NCBI RefSeq assembly: GCF_038562415.1
Contig: NZ_JBCFBA010000022.1
Span: forward strand, 1 to 64,000
Reading direction: 5' to 3'
DNA length: 64,000 nucleotides
DNA from: Solidesulfovibrio sp.
GTDB taxonomy: Bacteria; Desulfobacterota; Desulfovibrionia; Desulfovibrionales; Desulfovibrionaceae
Shown: positions 5,900-11,222 of the stretch, piece by piece
Layout: the number at the start of each line of letters is the position of its first letter
How positions within the stretch are numbered: position 1 is the first letter of the stretch
Program-made: the position numbers and the translations under genes
Notes under the pieces: generated by a model
Told to the model about the DNA's origin: nothing
Seen by the model: only the letters and a program-made list of their open reading frames with translations
Databases searched by the model: none

Positions 5900-6904
5900 C
5901 TACTGGTCGCCGAGCAGCAGGCCGTTGGCCGGGGGCACGGACTCCCCGGAGGCCAGGATGCGCAGGGCGTGGCTGAAGCTCGTGTAATACCATTCGGTGA
6001 CGCGAAACGGCCGCAGGTGGACGCCCAGCGGAATGGCCACGTTGTCGGAATCGTGGACCACGGGGCTGTTGTCGTGGCTGTCGAGGACCAGCGGGTCCGG
6101 GCCGGAGCCCAGGGAGCCGACCCACAGGATGACGTGGGTGACCGGGCCGGTGGGCGAACCCTTGATGTAGAGCAGGTCGCCGGTTTGCAGCTGGCCGCAC
6201 AGGGTGGCGAAATCCGGCGGGACATTGTCGACGGAAGCGGCCACGACCTTGGGCGTGATGTTGCCCACGCCCCCGGGGCCGGGAATGGGTGTGGTGGGCA
6301 GGGCCTGCACGGCCACGGCGGTGTTGAGTCTGATGCCCAGGCCGTAGTTGTAGTACCACGACGAGAAATCCGAACAGTCGATGCCCGGCGTCTGGCAGCC
6401 GATGAGCGTTTCGCTGTAGGGCCAGTCCGCGGGCGGGTCCCAGTCCAGGATGTGGTGGTGCTGGTAGTAGCGGCCGATGTATTGGGCGGCCGTGGCGACA
6501 ATGCGCTCCCGTTTCCATTGCAGCGGCGAACAGCCGGCGTTGGCCGGCAGGGACACGGCCGGGTACTGGGCGGGCGGCGGCCCCCAGGTGATGTCGCCCT
6601 GGTTGTAGGCCGCCTGGTCGTACCAGTCGGCATAGGGCATGCTGGATTCGAGGGTGGTGTCGTTTCGCGGCGGCTGGTCGAATCCGACGCTCAGGCTGGC
6701 CGTGTCGCAGGTGTAGGTCAGGGTGTAGGGCGAGGTGTAGGGGGCGGGATAGTTGCAGGTCGACGAGTCGTTTTTGGCGGCCGGCGGGGCCTGGGCCGGT
6801 TGGGCCAGGCCGGTTGCGCCCGTTGCCGCCACGAGCGCGAAAGCGGCGAAAAAGACCAACCAGCAAGCGCCTTGGCCGGGAAGGGCGGAAAAGCGGTACG
6901 ACAT
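5900..6904 (-). CDS. Secreted NlpC/P60-like cell-wall hydrolase
   Basis: The 334-residue protein begins with a hydrophobic signal segment (about residues 12-36, ending GLAQPAQA), so it should act in the periplasm. The C-terminal half has the layout of NlpC/P60 cysteine peptidases: GIDCSDF with the nucleophile Cys177, GDLLYIKG, THVILWVG with His257, and DSHDNS with His277 as possible third residue. These enzymes cut peptide stems of peptidoglycan. The N-terminal 140 residues have several cysteines (50, 66, 125) and match nothing I recognise. The gene is 108 bp beyond the start-distal end of the amidoligase cluster on the same strand, so it may be cotranscribed. A role for it in that cluster is only a suggestion. 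Confidence 0.75.
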   Translation of the reverse strand: MSYRFSALPGQGACWLVFFAAFALVAATGATGLAQPAQAPPAAKNDSSTCNYPAPYTSPYTLTYTCDTASLSVGFDQPPRNDTTLESSMPYADWYDQAAYNQGDITWGPPPAQYPAVSLPANAGCSPLQWKRERIVATAAQYIGRYYQHHHILDWDPPADWPYSETLIGCQTPGIDCSDFSSWYYNYGLGIRLNTAVAVQALPTTPIPGPGGVGNITPKVVAASVDNVPPDFATLCGQLQTGDLLYIKGSPTGPVTHVILWVGSLGSGPDPLVLDSHDNSPVVHDSDNVAIPLGVHLRPFRVTEWYYTSFSHALRILASGESVPPANGLLLGDQ

Positions 6905-7012: not shown

Positions 7013-7756
7013 TCAGGCGACGCGCGGGCCGGGGGCGGTCGTTTCGACTTCGTCCCGGCCCAGGACATCGGCCAGGGTCGCGGCCAGCAGCCGGTTGATG
7101 CGTTCGAAAGCCGCGCCGCCGGCCAGGGCGAAGCGTTGGTTCACCTCCAGTTCCACCCCGAGGTAGCGCTCGCCGAAGCGGCGGCGAAAGGCCGTGACCA
7201 GGCCGTCGGCGACGCCCCGGTAGGGATGGTTGCGGCGCAGGACAAGCTCCGGGGCCAGGGCCGCCAGGGCGTCGCGCCAGGCCAGGCAGAAGCGTTTTTC
7301 GGCGGCGCGGCCGGGATCGTAGAGAAAACCCACGTCGCAGCGCCGGGTCACGCCGCCCAGGCGCGGCACGAAGCTGTGGCTGGCGACGTGCAGGACGGTT
7401 TCGCCGTCCTCGAGCAGCCGCGCGACGGCCGCGGCCACGGCCTGCCAATGGGGGCGGTGATAGGCGTCGCGGATGGCCTGGCGGGCCTTTGCGGGCAGGG
7501 GTTTGGTGACCTCGGAGTAAAGCCCGGGGTGGCCCTCGCTGCGGTTGGCGTCGACCAGGAGCCGGGTGACGTCGGTGGCCAAAACCGGGGCGCCGATCGC
7601 GGCGGCCAGCCGCCGGGCCGTTTCCAGGGCACCGGCGTCGAAGCCCCGGTGGGAGGCGAGCAGGTCCTCGAAGCCCCGGAAAAACGGCCCGTACTCGGGC
7701 GGCACGGCCCTCCCGGCGTGCTCACAGGTAATAAGCGGCGCCAAGCAGGCCGACAT
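7013..7756 (-). CDS. N-formylglutamate amidohydrolase family protein
   Basis: This 247-residue protein shows the family features of N-formylglutamate amidohydrolases: CEHAG near residue 11, HRGFDAGA (about 37-44), VDANRS and a central HVASHSF. Known members hydrolyse N-formyl-glutamate or related amides, often with a bound metal. No histidine degradation gene lies nearby. Instead the start overlaps the GCS2-type ligase gene by 35 bp and closes a four-gene overlapping cluster, so its substrate is more likely a product or intermediate of that cluster. It is probably cytoplasmic; no signal peptide is visible. I am sure of the family and unsure of the substrate. Confidence 0.82.
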   Translation of the reverse strand: MSACLAPLITCEHAGRAVPPEYGPFFRGFEDLLASHRGFDAGALETARRLAAAIGAPVLATDVTRLLVDANRSEGHPGLYSEVTKPLPAKARQAIRDAYHRPHWQAVAAAVARLLEDGETVLHVASHSFVPRLGGVTRRCDVGFLYDPGRAAEKRFCLAWRDALAALAPELVLRRNHPYRGVADGLVTAFRRRFGERYLGVELEVNQRFALAGGAAFERINRLLAATLADVLGRDEVETTAPGPRVA

Positions 7757-8987
7757 TGAACGGCTCGTTTTTTTCCAGGCAGTCGCACAACTGCCCGTAC
7801 ACGGACAGGATGTTGCGCGGCCGGTAGTCGCCGTCCAGGGCGGCCAGGATGCGCCGGGCCAGGCTCGACTGGTCCACCAGCACCGGCAGGGGCTTGTCCC
7901 AGGCCGTGTCGTAATCCATGGTCGGCAGCGAACTGTGGACCAGCCGCCGCCAGATGACCCTGGCCGGGATGTCCGACGGCGCGTAGACGCCGAAGAGCCG
8001 GGCGTATCGGCGGGGCACCACCGTGCGGCCGGCGTTGGCGATGGTCTTGGTGAACACGGCGGCCAGCTCCCGGGTGTCCCAGGCCTTCTGCTCCTCGGAG
8101 GTGGACCAGCGCTCCTCCACCAGGCCCTTGAGCGCCGCCACGACCACGCCGGCCAGGGCCAGGTCGGCGGCCGGGCATTCCTGGGTGTCCAGGACGCGGA
8201 TCTCGATGGTGGAGCGGTCGAAACGGGCGATGGCCCCCCGGGCGTTTAAAAATTCGTCCTGGAGCAGGCCGGCCGGGTCCAGGGGGGCGATGTCGCGGTA
8301 CATGGGGGCCAGGATGTGGTCGCGGTATTCCTGTTCGGAGAAAACCGCCTCGGGGATGACGGCGGCCATGACCGAGGGCACGCGGGCGGCGTTTTTGGAA
8401 TACTGCTCCATGCGCGTGTCGAGGAAGCCCGTGAATTTGCCGTCGAGCAGCGGCGAGGAGGCGGCCAGGGCCGGCATGATGGGCAGCAGCGCCCGGATGG
8501 CGGCGTGGAGCCGGCCGAACTCGTCGTCGCCGCGAAAGGGCAGGTTCAGGTGCATGCTTTGCAGGTTGGACCAACCGTGCCCCTTGCAGTTGAAGATGGC
8601 GTCGAAGGCCTTGTAGATCTCGCCGTAGGTGTGGGGCCACAGGACGGTTTCGGCCAGGGGGTCCATGAAGGGATGGGCGCCCGTGGGCATCAGCCGCCCG
8701 CCCAGGGGGGCGAGCAGCGCGTCGGCCATGGCCACGTGCTCGGCGAAGAGCCCGGCCAGGCCATCGAGGCTGGCCGCCGGCTCGGTGACCTTCATCTCCA
8801 GCACGTGGTTGACCAGCTCGTTGGACCAGGTCAGCGCCCCCATGTTCACGTCGGCCACGCCTTCCCGCCCGGCGGCGGCGGCGAGCAGCTTGTCGGCCAC
8901 GGGCAACACGGCCAGCGTCTCCCGGTTGACGATCATGTATTCGATTTCCACGCCATAGGCGGAGAAAAGCGGTCTGGCCCGGCTCAT
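7722..8987 (-). CDS. GCS2-family carboxylate-amine ligase
   Basis: The 421-residue protein resembles the glutamate-cysteine ligase type 2 group (YbdK-like). The beginning FSAYGVEIEYMIVN is the nucleotide/metal-binding start of this fold, and SNELVNHVLEMK, PTGAHPF and the acidic and arginine-rich STIEIRVLDTQE follow in the order usual for the family. These enzymes activate a carboxylate with ATP and join it to an amine. Its start overlaps the stop of the ATP-grasp gene by 4 bp (8984-8987), and its end overlaps the amidohydrolase gene, which implies translational coupling. It need not make gamma-glutamylcysteine: the neighbourhood matches predicted amidoligase systems described for GCS2 plus RimK-type ligases. 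Confidence 0.85.
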   Translation of the reverse strand: MSRARPLFSAYGVEIEYMIVNRETLAVLPVADKLLAAAAGREGVADVNMGALTWSNELVNHVLEMKVTEPAASLDGLAGLFAEHVAMADALLAPLGGRLMPTGAHPFMDPLAETVLWPHTYGEIYKAFDAIFNCKGHGWSNLQSMHLNLPFRGDDEFGRLHAAIRALLPIMPALAASSPLLDGKFTGFLDTRMEQYSKNAARVPSVMAAVIPEAVFSEQEYRDHILAPMYRDIAPLDPAGLLQDEFLNARGAIARFDRSTIEIRVLDTQECPAADLALAGVVVAALKGLVEERWSTSEEQKAWDTRELAAVFTKTIANAGRTVVPRRYARLFGVYAPSDIPARVIWRRLVHSSLPTMDYDTAWDKPLPVLVDQSSLARRILAALDGDYRPRNILSVYGQLCDCLEKNEPFNVGLLGAAYYL

Positions 8988-10453
8988 ATGTTGAGGCTCC
9001 CGGTTTTGCGGCGTTCGATACGTTTGAGAAAGACTTCCACCACGCGCAGATACAGTTCGTCCTGCAGGACCTCGTCCTCGAAGCCCGCGTCGATATTGGG
9101 ATTGTCGTTGACCTCGATGACGTAGACCTTCTCGCCCACCTGTTTGAGGTCCACGCCGTAGAGGCCGTCGCCGATGGCGTCGGCGGCTTTCTGGGCGGCG
9201 GCGATGACTTTTTTGGGGACCCTGCCCACGGGCAGGGTTTCGACCCGGCCGTAGATGTCCTTGCCGGACTTGCCCTTGCGCAAAATCTGCCAGTGGCCGG
9301 CGGCCATGTAGTACTTGCAGGCGAAAAGCGGCCGCCGGTCCAGGATGCCGATGCGCCAGTCGAAATCCGAGGGCAGGTATTCCTGGGCGATGACCAGGTC
9401 GGACTTGGCCAAAAGGCGCCGGGCCTCGCTGACGAGGGTGTCGGATTCGCGCACCAGCACCACGCCCTGGGAAAAGGCGCTGTCGGGCTGCTTGAGCACG
9501 CAGGGCAGCGACAGCTCCTCCAGGATGTGGTCGATGCCCTTGGCGTGGGCGATGACCGTGCGCGGGGCCGGGATCCTGTGGCGCGAAAGCAGCTCGGCCA
9601 GGTAGACCTTGTTGGAACAGCGCAGGATCGACTGCGGGTCGTCGATGACCACCAGCCCCTCGGCCACGGCCTTGCGGGCCATGCGGTAGGTGTGGTGATC
9701 CACGTTGGTGGTCTCGCGGATGAACAGGGCGTCGAATTCGGACAGGCGGTTGGAATCCTCGTTGGTGACGAGCTCCACGCCGACGCCCAGCGTCTCGGCC
9801 GCCTTGACGAAGTATTTGAGGGCCTTGGCGTTCGAGGGCGGCCGGGCCTCCTCGGGGTCGTGCAGGATGGCCAGGTCGTAGCGCGACACCGGCCGCTTGG
9901 GGATGATGAGCTTTTTGCCGGCGAAGTATTCCGTGGACACGGATTCGGCGAAATCGCGCTCCTCGGGGGGAATGTCCTTGACGGACAGCGGCGAGACGTT
10001 TTGCAGCTGCCAGCCGCCGTTGAAGTTGAGGTCGGCGCGCAAGAAGGGCGCCGGGAAGAGCTTGAACAGCCGCGAGGCCAGCTGTTCCAGGCCCTTTTCA
10101 GGCGTTTTGCCGAAGTAGGCGGAAAAGCTCAGCTTCTCCGGAAAACGCTCGGCCAGGGCCCGGCCCATGACCTCTTCCAGTTCGTCCGAGGCCAAGCGGA
10201 TGATGCCGAGCGATTTCATGTCCTGGATGGCCGTGATGGACGGCACGGGCTTGTGCCCGCGCGCCTCGGCCAGAAGCGACACGTAATAGCCCATGGATTG
10301 GTAGCGGTAGGAGCGACAGATATTGATGATCTTGACGCCCCGAAGGCCGGTGAAGGTTTCGTCGGTCAGATAGGCCCGGGCCGCCACGGGTTCCACGCCG
10401 GAAAAGACCAGCGAGCAGTCCTCGGGATTTTCAATGACCACCAGAACGGACAC
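8984..10453 (-). CDS. RimK-like ATP-grasp ligase with N-terminal RLAN-type domain
   Basis: This 489-residue protein has two parts. Residues 1 to about 190 (MSVLVVIENPEDCSLVF...) resemble the N-terminal domain that accompanies some RimK-like ligases. The rest is an ATP-grasp ligase: FIRETTNVDHHTY, VIDDPQSILRCSNK, LPCVLKQPDSAFSQGV, IAQEYLPSDFDWRIG and the metal-binding VIEVNDNPNID near the C-terminus. RimK-like enzymes add amino acids to peptides or proteins through acyl-phosphate intermediates. The gene overlaps the peptidase gene before it by 23 bp and the GCS2 ligase after it by 4 bp. Together they look like a two-ligase peptide-forming system; substrate unknown. Confidence 0.87.
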   Translation of the reverse strand: MSVLVVIENPEDCSLVFSGVEPVAARAYLTDETFTGLRGVKIINICRSYRYQSMGYYVSLLAEARGHKPVPSITAIQDMKSLGIIRLASDELEEVMGRALAERFPEKLSFSAYFGKTPEKGLEQLASRLFKLFPAPFLRADLNFNGGWQLQNVSPLSVKDIPPEERDFAESVSTEYFAGKKLIIPKRPVSRYDLAILHDPEEARPPSNAKALKYFVKAAETLGVGVELVTNEDSNRLSEFDALFIRETTNVDHHTYRMARKAVAEGLVVIDDPQSILRCSNKVYLAELLSRHRIPAPRTVIAHAKGIDHILEELSLPCVLKQPDSAFSQGVVLVRESDTLVSEARRLLAKSDLVIAQEYLPSDFDWRIGILDRRPLFACKYYMAAGHWQILRKGKSGKDIYGRVETLPVGRVPKKVIAAAQKAADAIGDGLYGVDLKQVGEKVYVIEVNDNPNIDAGFEDEVLQDELYLRVVEVFLKRIERRKTGSLNI

Positions 10454-11222
10454 GATCGAAGGCTCCTTTGCCGTCCCTGGGGACGGCTTTTTTGCGGGGG
10501 GAGAGCACCAGCAGGTTGGCGTCGCGGGTGATGATGCCGAGCATCACGGCGCACACCAGGTGATTGAGCGTCACCTGGTAATACTGGCTTTCGCTGATGG
10601 GGTTGGGCAACAAGGGATCGGCGATGTGGGCGGTGCGGCTTTCCTGGTCGTAGCCGCCGATGACCACGAAATGCCCGGAGGGCTCGCCACGCAGGTCGTC
10701 GAAGATCATCTTCCCGTCCGCATCGTCGCGTTCGCGGGCGGTGCGGTAGAGGTAGGTGGCGGAGAGCCCGGCCAGGATGGGCCGGTCGCGCTTGAGGATG
10801 CCGCGCAAAAGCCCGGCCGTGAGGTCCTCGAAACGGATCTCGCCGCCCAGGCGCAGGTATTCCAGAGTGGCCTCGGTGGTGGCCTGGAGCCGGGCGCTTT
10901 TCTTGTGGCGGCGCTGGCGCGTGAGCTTGTCGGCCAGGTCGGCCTGGCCGCCGTCGCCGAACCAGGTGATGTCGAACACGGTGAGGTCGAAGGTGTAGAG
11001 CCTGGCCGCGTAGCCGCGCGAAAGGGCATGGCAGCCCAGCAGTGCCGCCAGGGTGCCGCCGCCGGGCAGGGTGGCCGTTTCGGCGATGACCGCCGAGAGC
11101 GGCACGTCGTCACCGTAATACCGGTAAATGGCTTGCAGACAGGTCGGGCCGCAGGTGGTGTCGTCGGGCTGGGCCTCGATGGGTATGGCGAGCTTGGAGC
11201 GCACGGGTTTGGCCGATACCAC
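10431..11222 (-). CDS. C39-like papain-fold peptidase
   Basis: The 263-residue protein has a C39-like peptidase core. The expected catalytic residues are Cys24 in DDTTCGPTCLQAIYRYYG, His184 in SGHFVVIGGYD and Asp202 in IADPLLP. It has no signal peptide, transporter domain or transmembrane segment, unlike bacteriocin exporters of the C39 family, so it probably works in the cytoplasm. As first gene of the overlapping four-gene cluster it may process, or transfer, the amide product made by the two ligases downstream. The upstream 208 bp to fliM (11223-11430) is the likely promoter region; no clear operator was seen there. Confidence 0.8.
   Translation of the reverse strand: MVSAKPVRSKLAIPIEAQPDDTTCGPTCLQAIYRYYGDDVPLSAVIAETATLPGGGTLAALLGCHALSRGYAARLYTFDLTVFDITWFGDGGQADLADKLTRQRRHKKSARLQATTEATLEYLRLGGEIRFEDLTAGLLRGILKRDRPILAGLSATYLYRTARERDDADGKMIFDDLRGEPSGHFVVIGGYDQESRTAHIADPLLPNPISESQYYQVTLNHLVCAVMLGIITRDANLLVLSPRKKAVPRDGKGAFDRVRSGGH

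Follow-up and report, generated by a model that had tools for sequence, protein, structure and literature searches.

The DNA analysed here, which we call the window, is a 64,000-nucleotide stretch of Solidesulfovibrio sp. (contig NZ_JBCFBA010000022.1, positions 1 to 64,000 of the forward strand; source genome size, 5.07 Mb). Between positions 7013 and 11222, it carries a compact unit of four open reading frames (ORFs), all on the minus strand and successively overlapping by 23, 4 and 35 bp. The first gene (10431..11222) encodes a C39-like papain-fold cysteine peptidase of 263 aa (PF13529, PF03412; E-value for Peptidase_C39_2, 2.1e-9), in which we found no transporter domain. It overlaps by 23 bp with the gene of a 489-aa protein (8984..10453) that combines an RLAN domain (PF14401, E-value 5.6e-46) with a RimK-type ATP-grasp ligase (PF08443, 6.9e-9) and is hereafter referred to as the RLAN ligase. 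Following with a 4-bp overlap is the gene of a GCS2-family carboxylate-amine ligase (7722..8987; 421 aa; PF04107, 3.9e-29), which in turn overlaps by 35 bp with the gene of a hydrolase of the N-formylglutamate amidohydrolase family (FGase; 7013..7756; 247 aa; PF05013, 1.9e-25), an accessory member of the unit. The Pfam matches given with E-values all exceed the curated cut-offs; together with the ORF list, they confirm the four genes, families, positions and overlaps given by the original prediction, which had been made from the sequence alone. A promoter scan returned a single minus-strand match at 11284-11257, with 0.4 expected by chance, and is not used as evidence.

Among 59 genomes searched, the RLAN ligase was present in all 14 of the genus (the window's own included), in 3 of 21 further genomes of the family and in none of 24 of the order. 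The peptidase subfamily was found in the same 17 genomes, plus a weak partial match in one more (G035). In all 16 loci from relatives, 13 of which belong to the genus, the genes of the peptidase, the RLAN ligase and the GCS2 ligase show identical order and strand. FGase is in place in 14 of these 16 loci; as for the other two, one ends inside GCS2 (L036) and one has room for FGase and shows no match (L037). fliM is seen upstream of the unit in 13/13 genus loci; none was seen in L035-L037.

For a broader view, we scanned genome contigs using a 16-row alignment as the query and retained the top 80 among at least 592 stretches that matched, a sample which by this very selection favours close relatives. 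Within it, and counting loci with room for the neighbour in question, the C39-like peptidase lies directly upstream of the RLAN ligase in 66/78 and GCS2 directly downstream in 66/73, with all three genes adjacent in 59/72. FGase comes next after GCS2 in 38/59 loci. The conserved order anticipated by the original prediction is therefore kept, but full constancy of the four genes is not, FGase being non-adjacent in 21 of those 59 loci. Judging from record titles, the peptidase-RLAN-GCS2 loci fall into twelve phyla, namely Thermodesulfobacteriota, Pseudomonadota, Planctomycetota, Bacteroidota, Nitrospirota, Acidobacteriota, Verrucomicrobiota, Spirochaetota, Ignavibacteriota, Balneolota, Omnitrophota and Tectomicrobia, of which single assignments may be wrong because many of these genomes are metagenome-assembled. 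Spacing is mostly tight: over all loci collected and with script-chosen gene starts, gaps are no larger than 30 bp in 87/92 peptidase-RLAN, 80/91 RLAN-GCS2 and 51/55 GCS2-FGase pairs, and the RLAN and GCS2 genes overlap in 68/91 pairs. Fusions between the four families were not found in the ORFs examined.

The four families also travel together at the level of whole genomes. Across 395 genomes of the phylum, the RLAN ligase is present in 17, GCS2 and the peptidase subfamily in 14 each and FGase in 12. The 17 RLAN genomes account for 14/14 genomes with GCS2, 13/14 with the peptidase and 10/12 with FGase (Fisher p for association with RLAN of 3e-23, 4e-20 and 5e-14, respectively, species ancestry being ignored). 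Exceptions include one genome with the peptidase only (G193) and three with the RLAN ligase only (G181, G209 and G244). In addition, distances between proteins are correlated among the four families (r 0.50-0.71, with 0/999 permutations as high, species ancestry again being ignored), as calculated after omission of 17 near-duplicate loci (L022-L034, L071, L076, L084 and L085).

Incomplete loci were followed up in 17 chosen genomes, covering 5 of 6 RLAN-GCS2 loci without the C39-like peptidase and 4 of 7 loci without GCS2. These genomes contain the peptidase in 14 cases (in G453 as a fragment only), GCS2 in 15 and FGase in 8. Where RLAN-GCS2 lacks an adjoining peptidase gene, 4/5 genomes have one elsewhere, once as a mere fragment; where peptidase-RLAN lacks GCS2, 2/2 genomes encode GCS2 elsewhere. 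Since missing partners are often encoded elsewhere in the genome, the association is more than adjacency. In G454, the peptidase gene overlaps the FGase gene, and in G455, FGase begins 11 bases after the peptidase gene, so that the operon is divided there, with the ligases in one pair and the hydrolases in the other. On a plasmid record of Legionella adelaidensis, RLAN, GCS2 and FGase occur in this order, and its 9 kb revealed no peptidase. Of the four members, FGase is the least constant, being dispensable or replaceable: in L125, GCS2 is followed by a more distantly related member of the FGase family, and in L077, an AstE/AspA-family gene occupies this place, on the opposite strand.

Three loci with isolated or decayed genes deserve mention. 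A Nitrosomonas genome (G463) has an FGase gene (L166:3572-4297) next to the remains of a decayed GCS2 gene, interrupted by several stops, which marks a former second cluster. In G401, where RLAN has no match, an FGase-subfamily gene lies directly after a proteasome-beta-like ORF with a weak TIGR03634 match (L159:6667-8271); we take this ORF to resemble Anbu. Finally, the peptidase gene of G193 directly follows the gene of a Cys/Met-metabolism pyridoxal phosphate-dependent enzyme (L157:3-5193), on a 6.7-kb contig that also carries a GNAT and, judged by eye, an ATP-grasp gene; there is no RLAN match in this genome.

Retention of the active sites was inspected in all four families, with the catalytic roles of the residues inferred from family knowledge. 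Peptidase residues Q18, C24, H184 and D202 are found in 65/65 family members. The RLAN ligase keeps K282, K321, R367, D435, E447 and N449 in 70/70 sequences and E358 in 57/70. In GCS2, E14, E16, N56, E57, H61, E64, E262, Q269 and E270 are present in 66/66 and R264 in 65/66 members, and FGase retains E12, H13, H36, D40, R65, R72, H123, H127, E202 and E204 in 42/42. A loss of catalytic residues in homologues, which would have spoken against the original prediction, was thus not seen for the residues presumed to be catalytic. Taken together, co-inheritance, gene order and retained active sites support the view, also put forward in that prediction, that the four genes constitute one co-inherited functional unit. 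That about a dozen phyla keep a four-enzyme unit in fixed order, with intact active sites, suggests a metabolite or modification in use in many bacteria.

We then asked how the four proteins relate to characterised enzymes. None of the NCBIfam models matched by the window proteins comes near its cut-off; the peptidase has no match among these models. The RLAN ligase reaches 23.7 bits against the model of the S6 ligase RimK (PRK10446; cut-off 331), 63.4 against the RimK family (TIGR00768; 143.4), 59.2 against LysX (275.6) and 21.5 against glutathione synthetase (272). GCS2 scores 58.5 bits with YbdK (cut-off 176.4) and 19.1 with EgtA (370.8), and the FGase-family protein scores 21.7 bits with the N-formylglutamate deformylase HutG (TIGR02017; 278.75), with PF05013 being matched in 42/42 members of its subfamily. 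The phytochelatin synthase domain PF05023 has no match in the window peptidase and was seen in 1/65 subfamily members, at E 0.0076. An anti-phage defence system was rejected, as no PADLOC profile matched any of the unit proteins (0 families at E 0.01 for 4/4).

Structure prediction gave models for the peptidase (predicted local distance difference test [pLDDT] score, 91.0) and the RLAN ligase (pLDDT, 90.1; predicted template modelling score, 0.63). In Foldseek searches, the peptidase domain of PCAT ranks first for the peptidase model, and the phytochelatin synthase Alr0975 with glutathione appears at rank 14 (TM-score 0.40, 10% identity). The best match of the ligase is ArgX, solved with LysW and Glu, followed by RimK and LysX; these matches cover the ATP-grasp part. 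The 50 matches listed for the whole ligase are ATP-grasp proteins, spanning 293-337 alignment columns of the 489-residue model, and the RLAN fold is unplaced among them, the query having been the whole ligase. For FGase, the closest solved chain is 2odf, the hypothetical protein Atu2144 (E 4.4e-38).

A precursor peptide or a constant fifth gene was sought among the neighbours and rejected. In the roughly 400 bases preceding the peptidase gene, no ORF of 18-80 codons was found to be conserved beyond close relatives, and no precursor or carrier among neighbours of at least 40 codons is conserved beside the unit. Nor is there a fixed fifth gene: within the top 40 neighbour clusters, recurrent neighbours are few and taxon-limited.

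GNAT genes gave a first hint at the chemistry. Starting from 115 loci, we dropped 10 without room, leaving 93 with GCS2 (including 13 genus loci and one contig twice, L067/L084) and 12 without. A GNAT lies within 400 bases of the RLAN gene, or is fused, in 4/12 loci without GCS2 (L072, L073, L074 and L133) and in 0/93 with it, the latter being the informative part of the count because the profile was built from the GNATs counted. This placement beside some GCS2-less RLAN genes hints at an amine substrate; because GNAT acylates amines, GCS2 may fill the GNAT slot with a glutamyl-type group. A related arrangement is found in Azospirillum (L059), where the same ligase, 43% identical, likewise has a papain-like C39-like peptidase directly upstream. 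There, however, the peptidase is fused to GNAT as a GNAT-DUF3335 protein, and neither GCS2 nor FGase is present in the locus. DUF3335 itself has no match in the window peptidase at E 0.1 and matches 7/65 subfamily members at E 0.01. A DUF3335-GNAT fusion has been described in print (PMC10318531, citing Iyer et al. 2009).

The reading that we favour, tentatively and at somewhat less than an even chance, is that of a self-contained cytoplasmic pathway resembling glutathione synthesis and turnover, with two ligases that build a short (iso)peptide and two hydrolases that trim it. GCS2 would activate a carboxylate, which the precedent of its family suggests to be the gamma-carboxyl of glutamate, and join it to an amine. 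The RLAN ligase would add an amino acid, presumably glutamate as in related enzymes, to a carboxylate of that molecule or of a similar one, yielding a short (iso)peptide. Each ligation may have its opposing hydrolase, with the C39-like peptidase acting on a gamma-glutamyl or peptidyl bond, and an acyl-amino-acid bond being cut by the FGase-family enzyme where present; together, they might trim, mature or recycle the product. Such a scheme parallels the add-then-remove logic of ergothioneine synthesis. It also resembles glutathione synthesis coupled to phytochelatin synthase in combining a GCS-type ligase, an ATP-grasp ligase and a papain-fold enzyme, although the ATP-grasp ligase of the window is of the RimK/ArgX type and its peptidase falls outside the phytochelatin family. 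Between the novel peptides and the protein tags offered by the original prediction, we lean to a small peptide-like metabolite, because the unit is not accompanied by any tag or carrier gene and because GNAT adjoins some RLAN genes that lack GCS2. More specifically, the product could be a low-molecular-weight gamma-glutamyl peptide, an additional glutathione-like molecule common to sulphate reducers, nitrifiers, planctomycetes, Bacteroidota and other groups, for which a single operon would encode both the making and the turnover; we consider this rather doubtful. Since both ligases look soluble and self-contained, the substrate question is directly testable.

Several observations weigh against a pathway of this kind. 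FGase occurs without the RLAN ligase, and as the only one of the four, in G383 and G401; it was not found in 9 of the 17 genomes with incomplete clusters. G286 has the RLAN ligase (with a stop), GCS2 and FGase without the C39-like peptidase, G457 has both ligases and neither hydrolase, and the genomes of L102 and L133 have the RLAN ligase without the other three genes. In G467, the split runs between peptidase-RLAN and two copies of GCS2-FGase and not between ligases and hydrolases. At the structural level, the match to phytochelatin synthase is superfamily-level only, with leader-cutting PCAT domains ranking first. The GNAT profile was built from the four GNATs that it finds, two of which (L072 and L073) come from one genus. 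Finally, proteins, too, are modified by RimK-type ligases.

This last point leads to the main rival, which we consider possible albeit rather unlikely: tagging of a protein or peptide, whereby RLAN would recognise a protein, the RimK-type ligase and GCS2 would add glutamyl or other residues, and the C39-like peptidase and FGase would remove them. The extra RLAN domain on a RimK-sized core fits this idea, as does a peptidase fold closest to leader-cutting PCAT domains; yet no conserved tag, carrier or target gene lies beside the unit, though a target might be encoded elsewhere. ArgX and LysX, which represent the closest solved fold of the ATP-grasp part, work with the carrier LysW, whereas no carrier gene was seen beside units of the window type. 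To our knowledge, the substrates of characterised GCS2 enzymes are free amino acids, which also counts against tagging. A precedent exists in S6 glutamylation, where, according to PMC12239564, RimK adds glutamates to the ribosomal protein and its peptidase partner RimB removes them. Unlike this pair, the window unit has an additional RLAN domain and a GCS2, and its peptidase is a cysteine peptidase and not an aspartic one.

Next comes amine utilisation or salvage, which we regard as quite improbable. Here, GCS2 would gamma-glutamylate, or GNAT acetylate, an amine as a catabolic handle, and the hydrolases would then free glutamate; the gamma-glutamyl putrescine route serves as the model. The distribution of GNAT genes described above agrees with this proposal, as do class II glutamine amidotransferase-like genes near the unit in four loci. 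However, the top 40 neighbour clusters contain no recurrent oxidase, dehydrogenase or amine transporter beside the unit, and a RimK-type ligase has no role in the putrescine route. Least of all do we expect a graspetide-like ribosomal peptide, cross-linked by the ligase and freed from its leader by the C39-like peptidase: such clusters do carry C39 peptidases and ATP-grasp ligases (for the class, see PMC8939145), but neither a conserved precursor gene beside the enzymes, though one might be encoded elsewhere, nor an ABC transporter among the recurrent neighbours listed was found, making this very improbable.

As its ligase and peptidase genes stay together across many lineages, the unit belongs with the amidoligase-peptidase clusters. 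These were reportedly predicted as a class by Iyer et al. in 2009. The prediction is cited in PMC3597751, PMC10318531 and PMC12239564. In line with the original prediction, no characterised product was found in the literature searched, nor any published account of this four-gene unit, most subscription journals lying outside the search.

As for individual neighbours, the original prediction had pointed to a secreted NlpC/P60-like hydrolase that follows the unit. An ORF is present on the same strand (5900-6904, minus), the start of which, judged by eye, resembles a secretion signal; it scores 21.1 bits in Pfam, which does not reach the cut-off of 23. By tblastn, a homologue was found in 0/16 relatives' loci, several of them short on that side, and we rejected this gene as a member of the unit.

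The class II glutamine amidotransferase-like (EgtC/YafJ-like) genes mentioned above lie near the unit at L087:5208-6122, L088:1265-2134, L105:10432-11559 and L109:10436-11521, with Pfam checked for L087 only. Their relatives include the gamma-glutamyl hydrolase EgtC. Being limited to four loci and located on the opposite strand, they were set aside as a lead and not counted as a fifth enzyme. In four loci with planctomycete-type titles, the unit adjoins an MFS-transporter-like gene (L106:6205-7839, L108:4825-6270, L110:4658-6166 and L151:9878-11161; Pfam checked for L151 only), possibly an exporter or importer of the product.

The window's own genome also encodes a GAK-system ATP-grasp enzyme (L002:1198-2079; TIGR04356, 426.3 bits, cut-off 300), which is part of a separate system. 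Lastly, two viral contigs from IMG/VR carry RimK-type ATP-grasp proteins (L040:4546-5861 and L038:4938-5936) with 36-43% identity to the window ligase outside RLAN. The gene on L040 overlaps a GNAT gene and perhaps represents a phage-borne minimal version.

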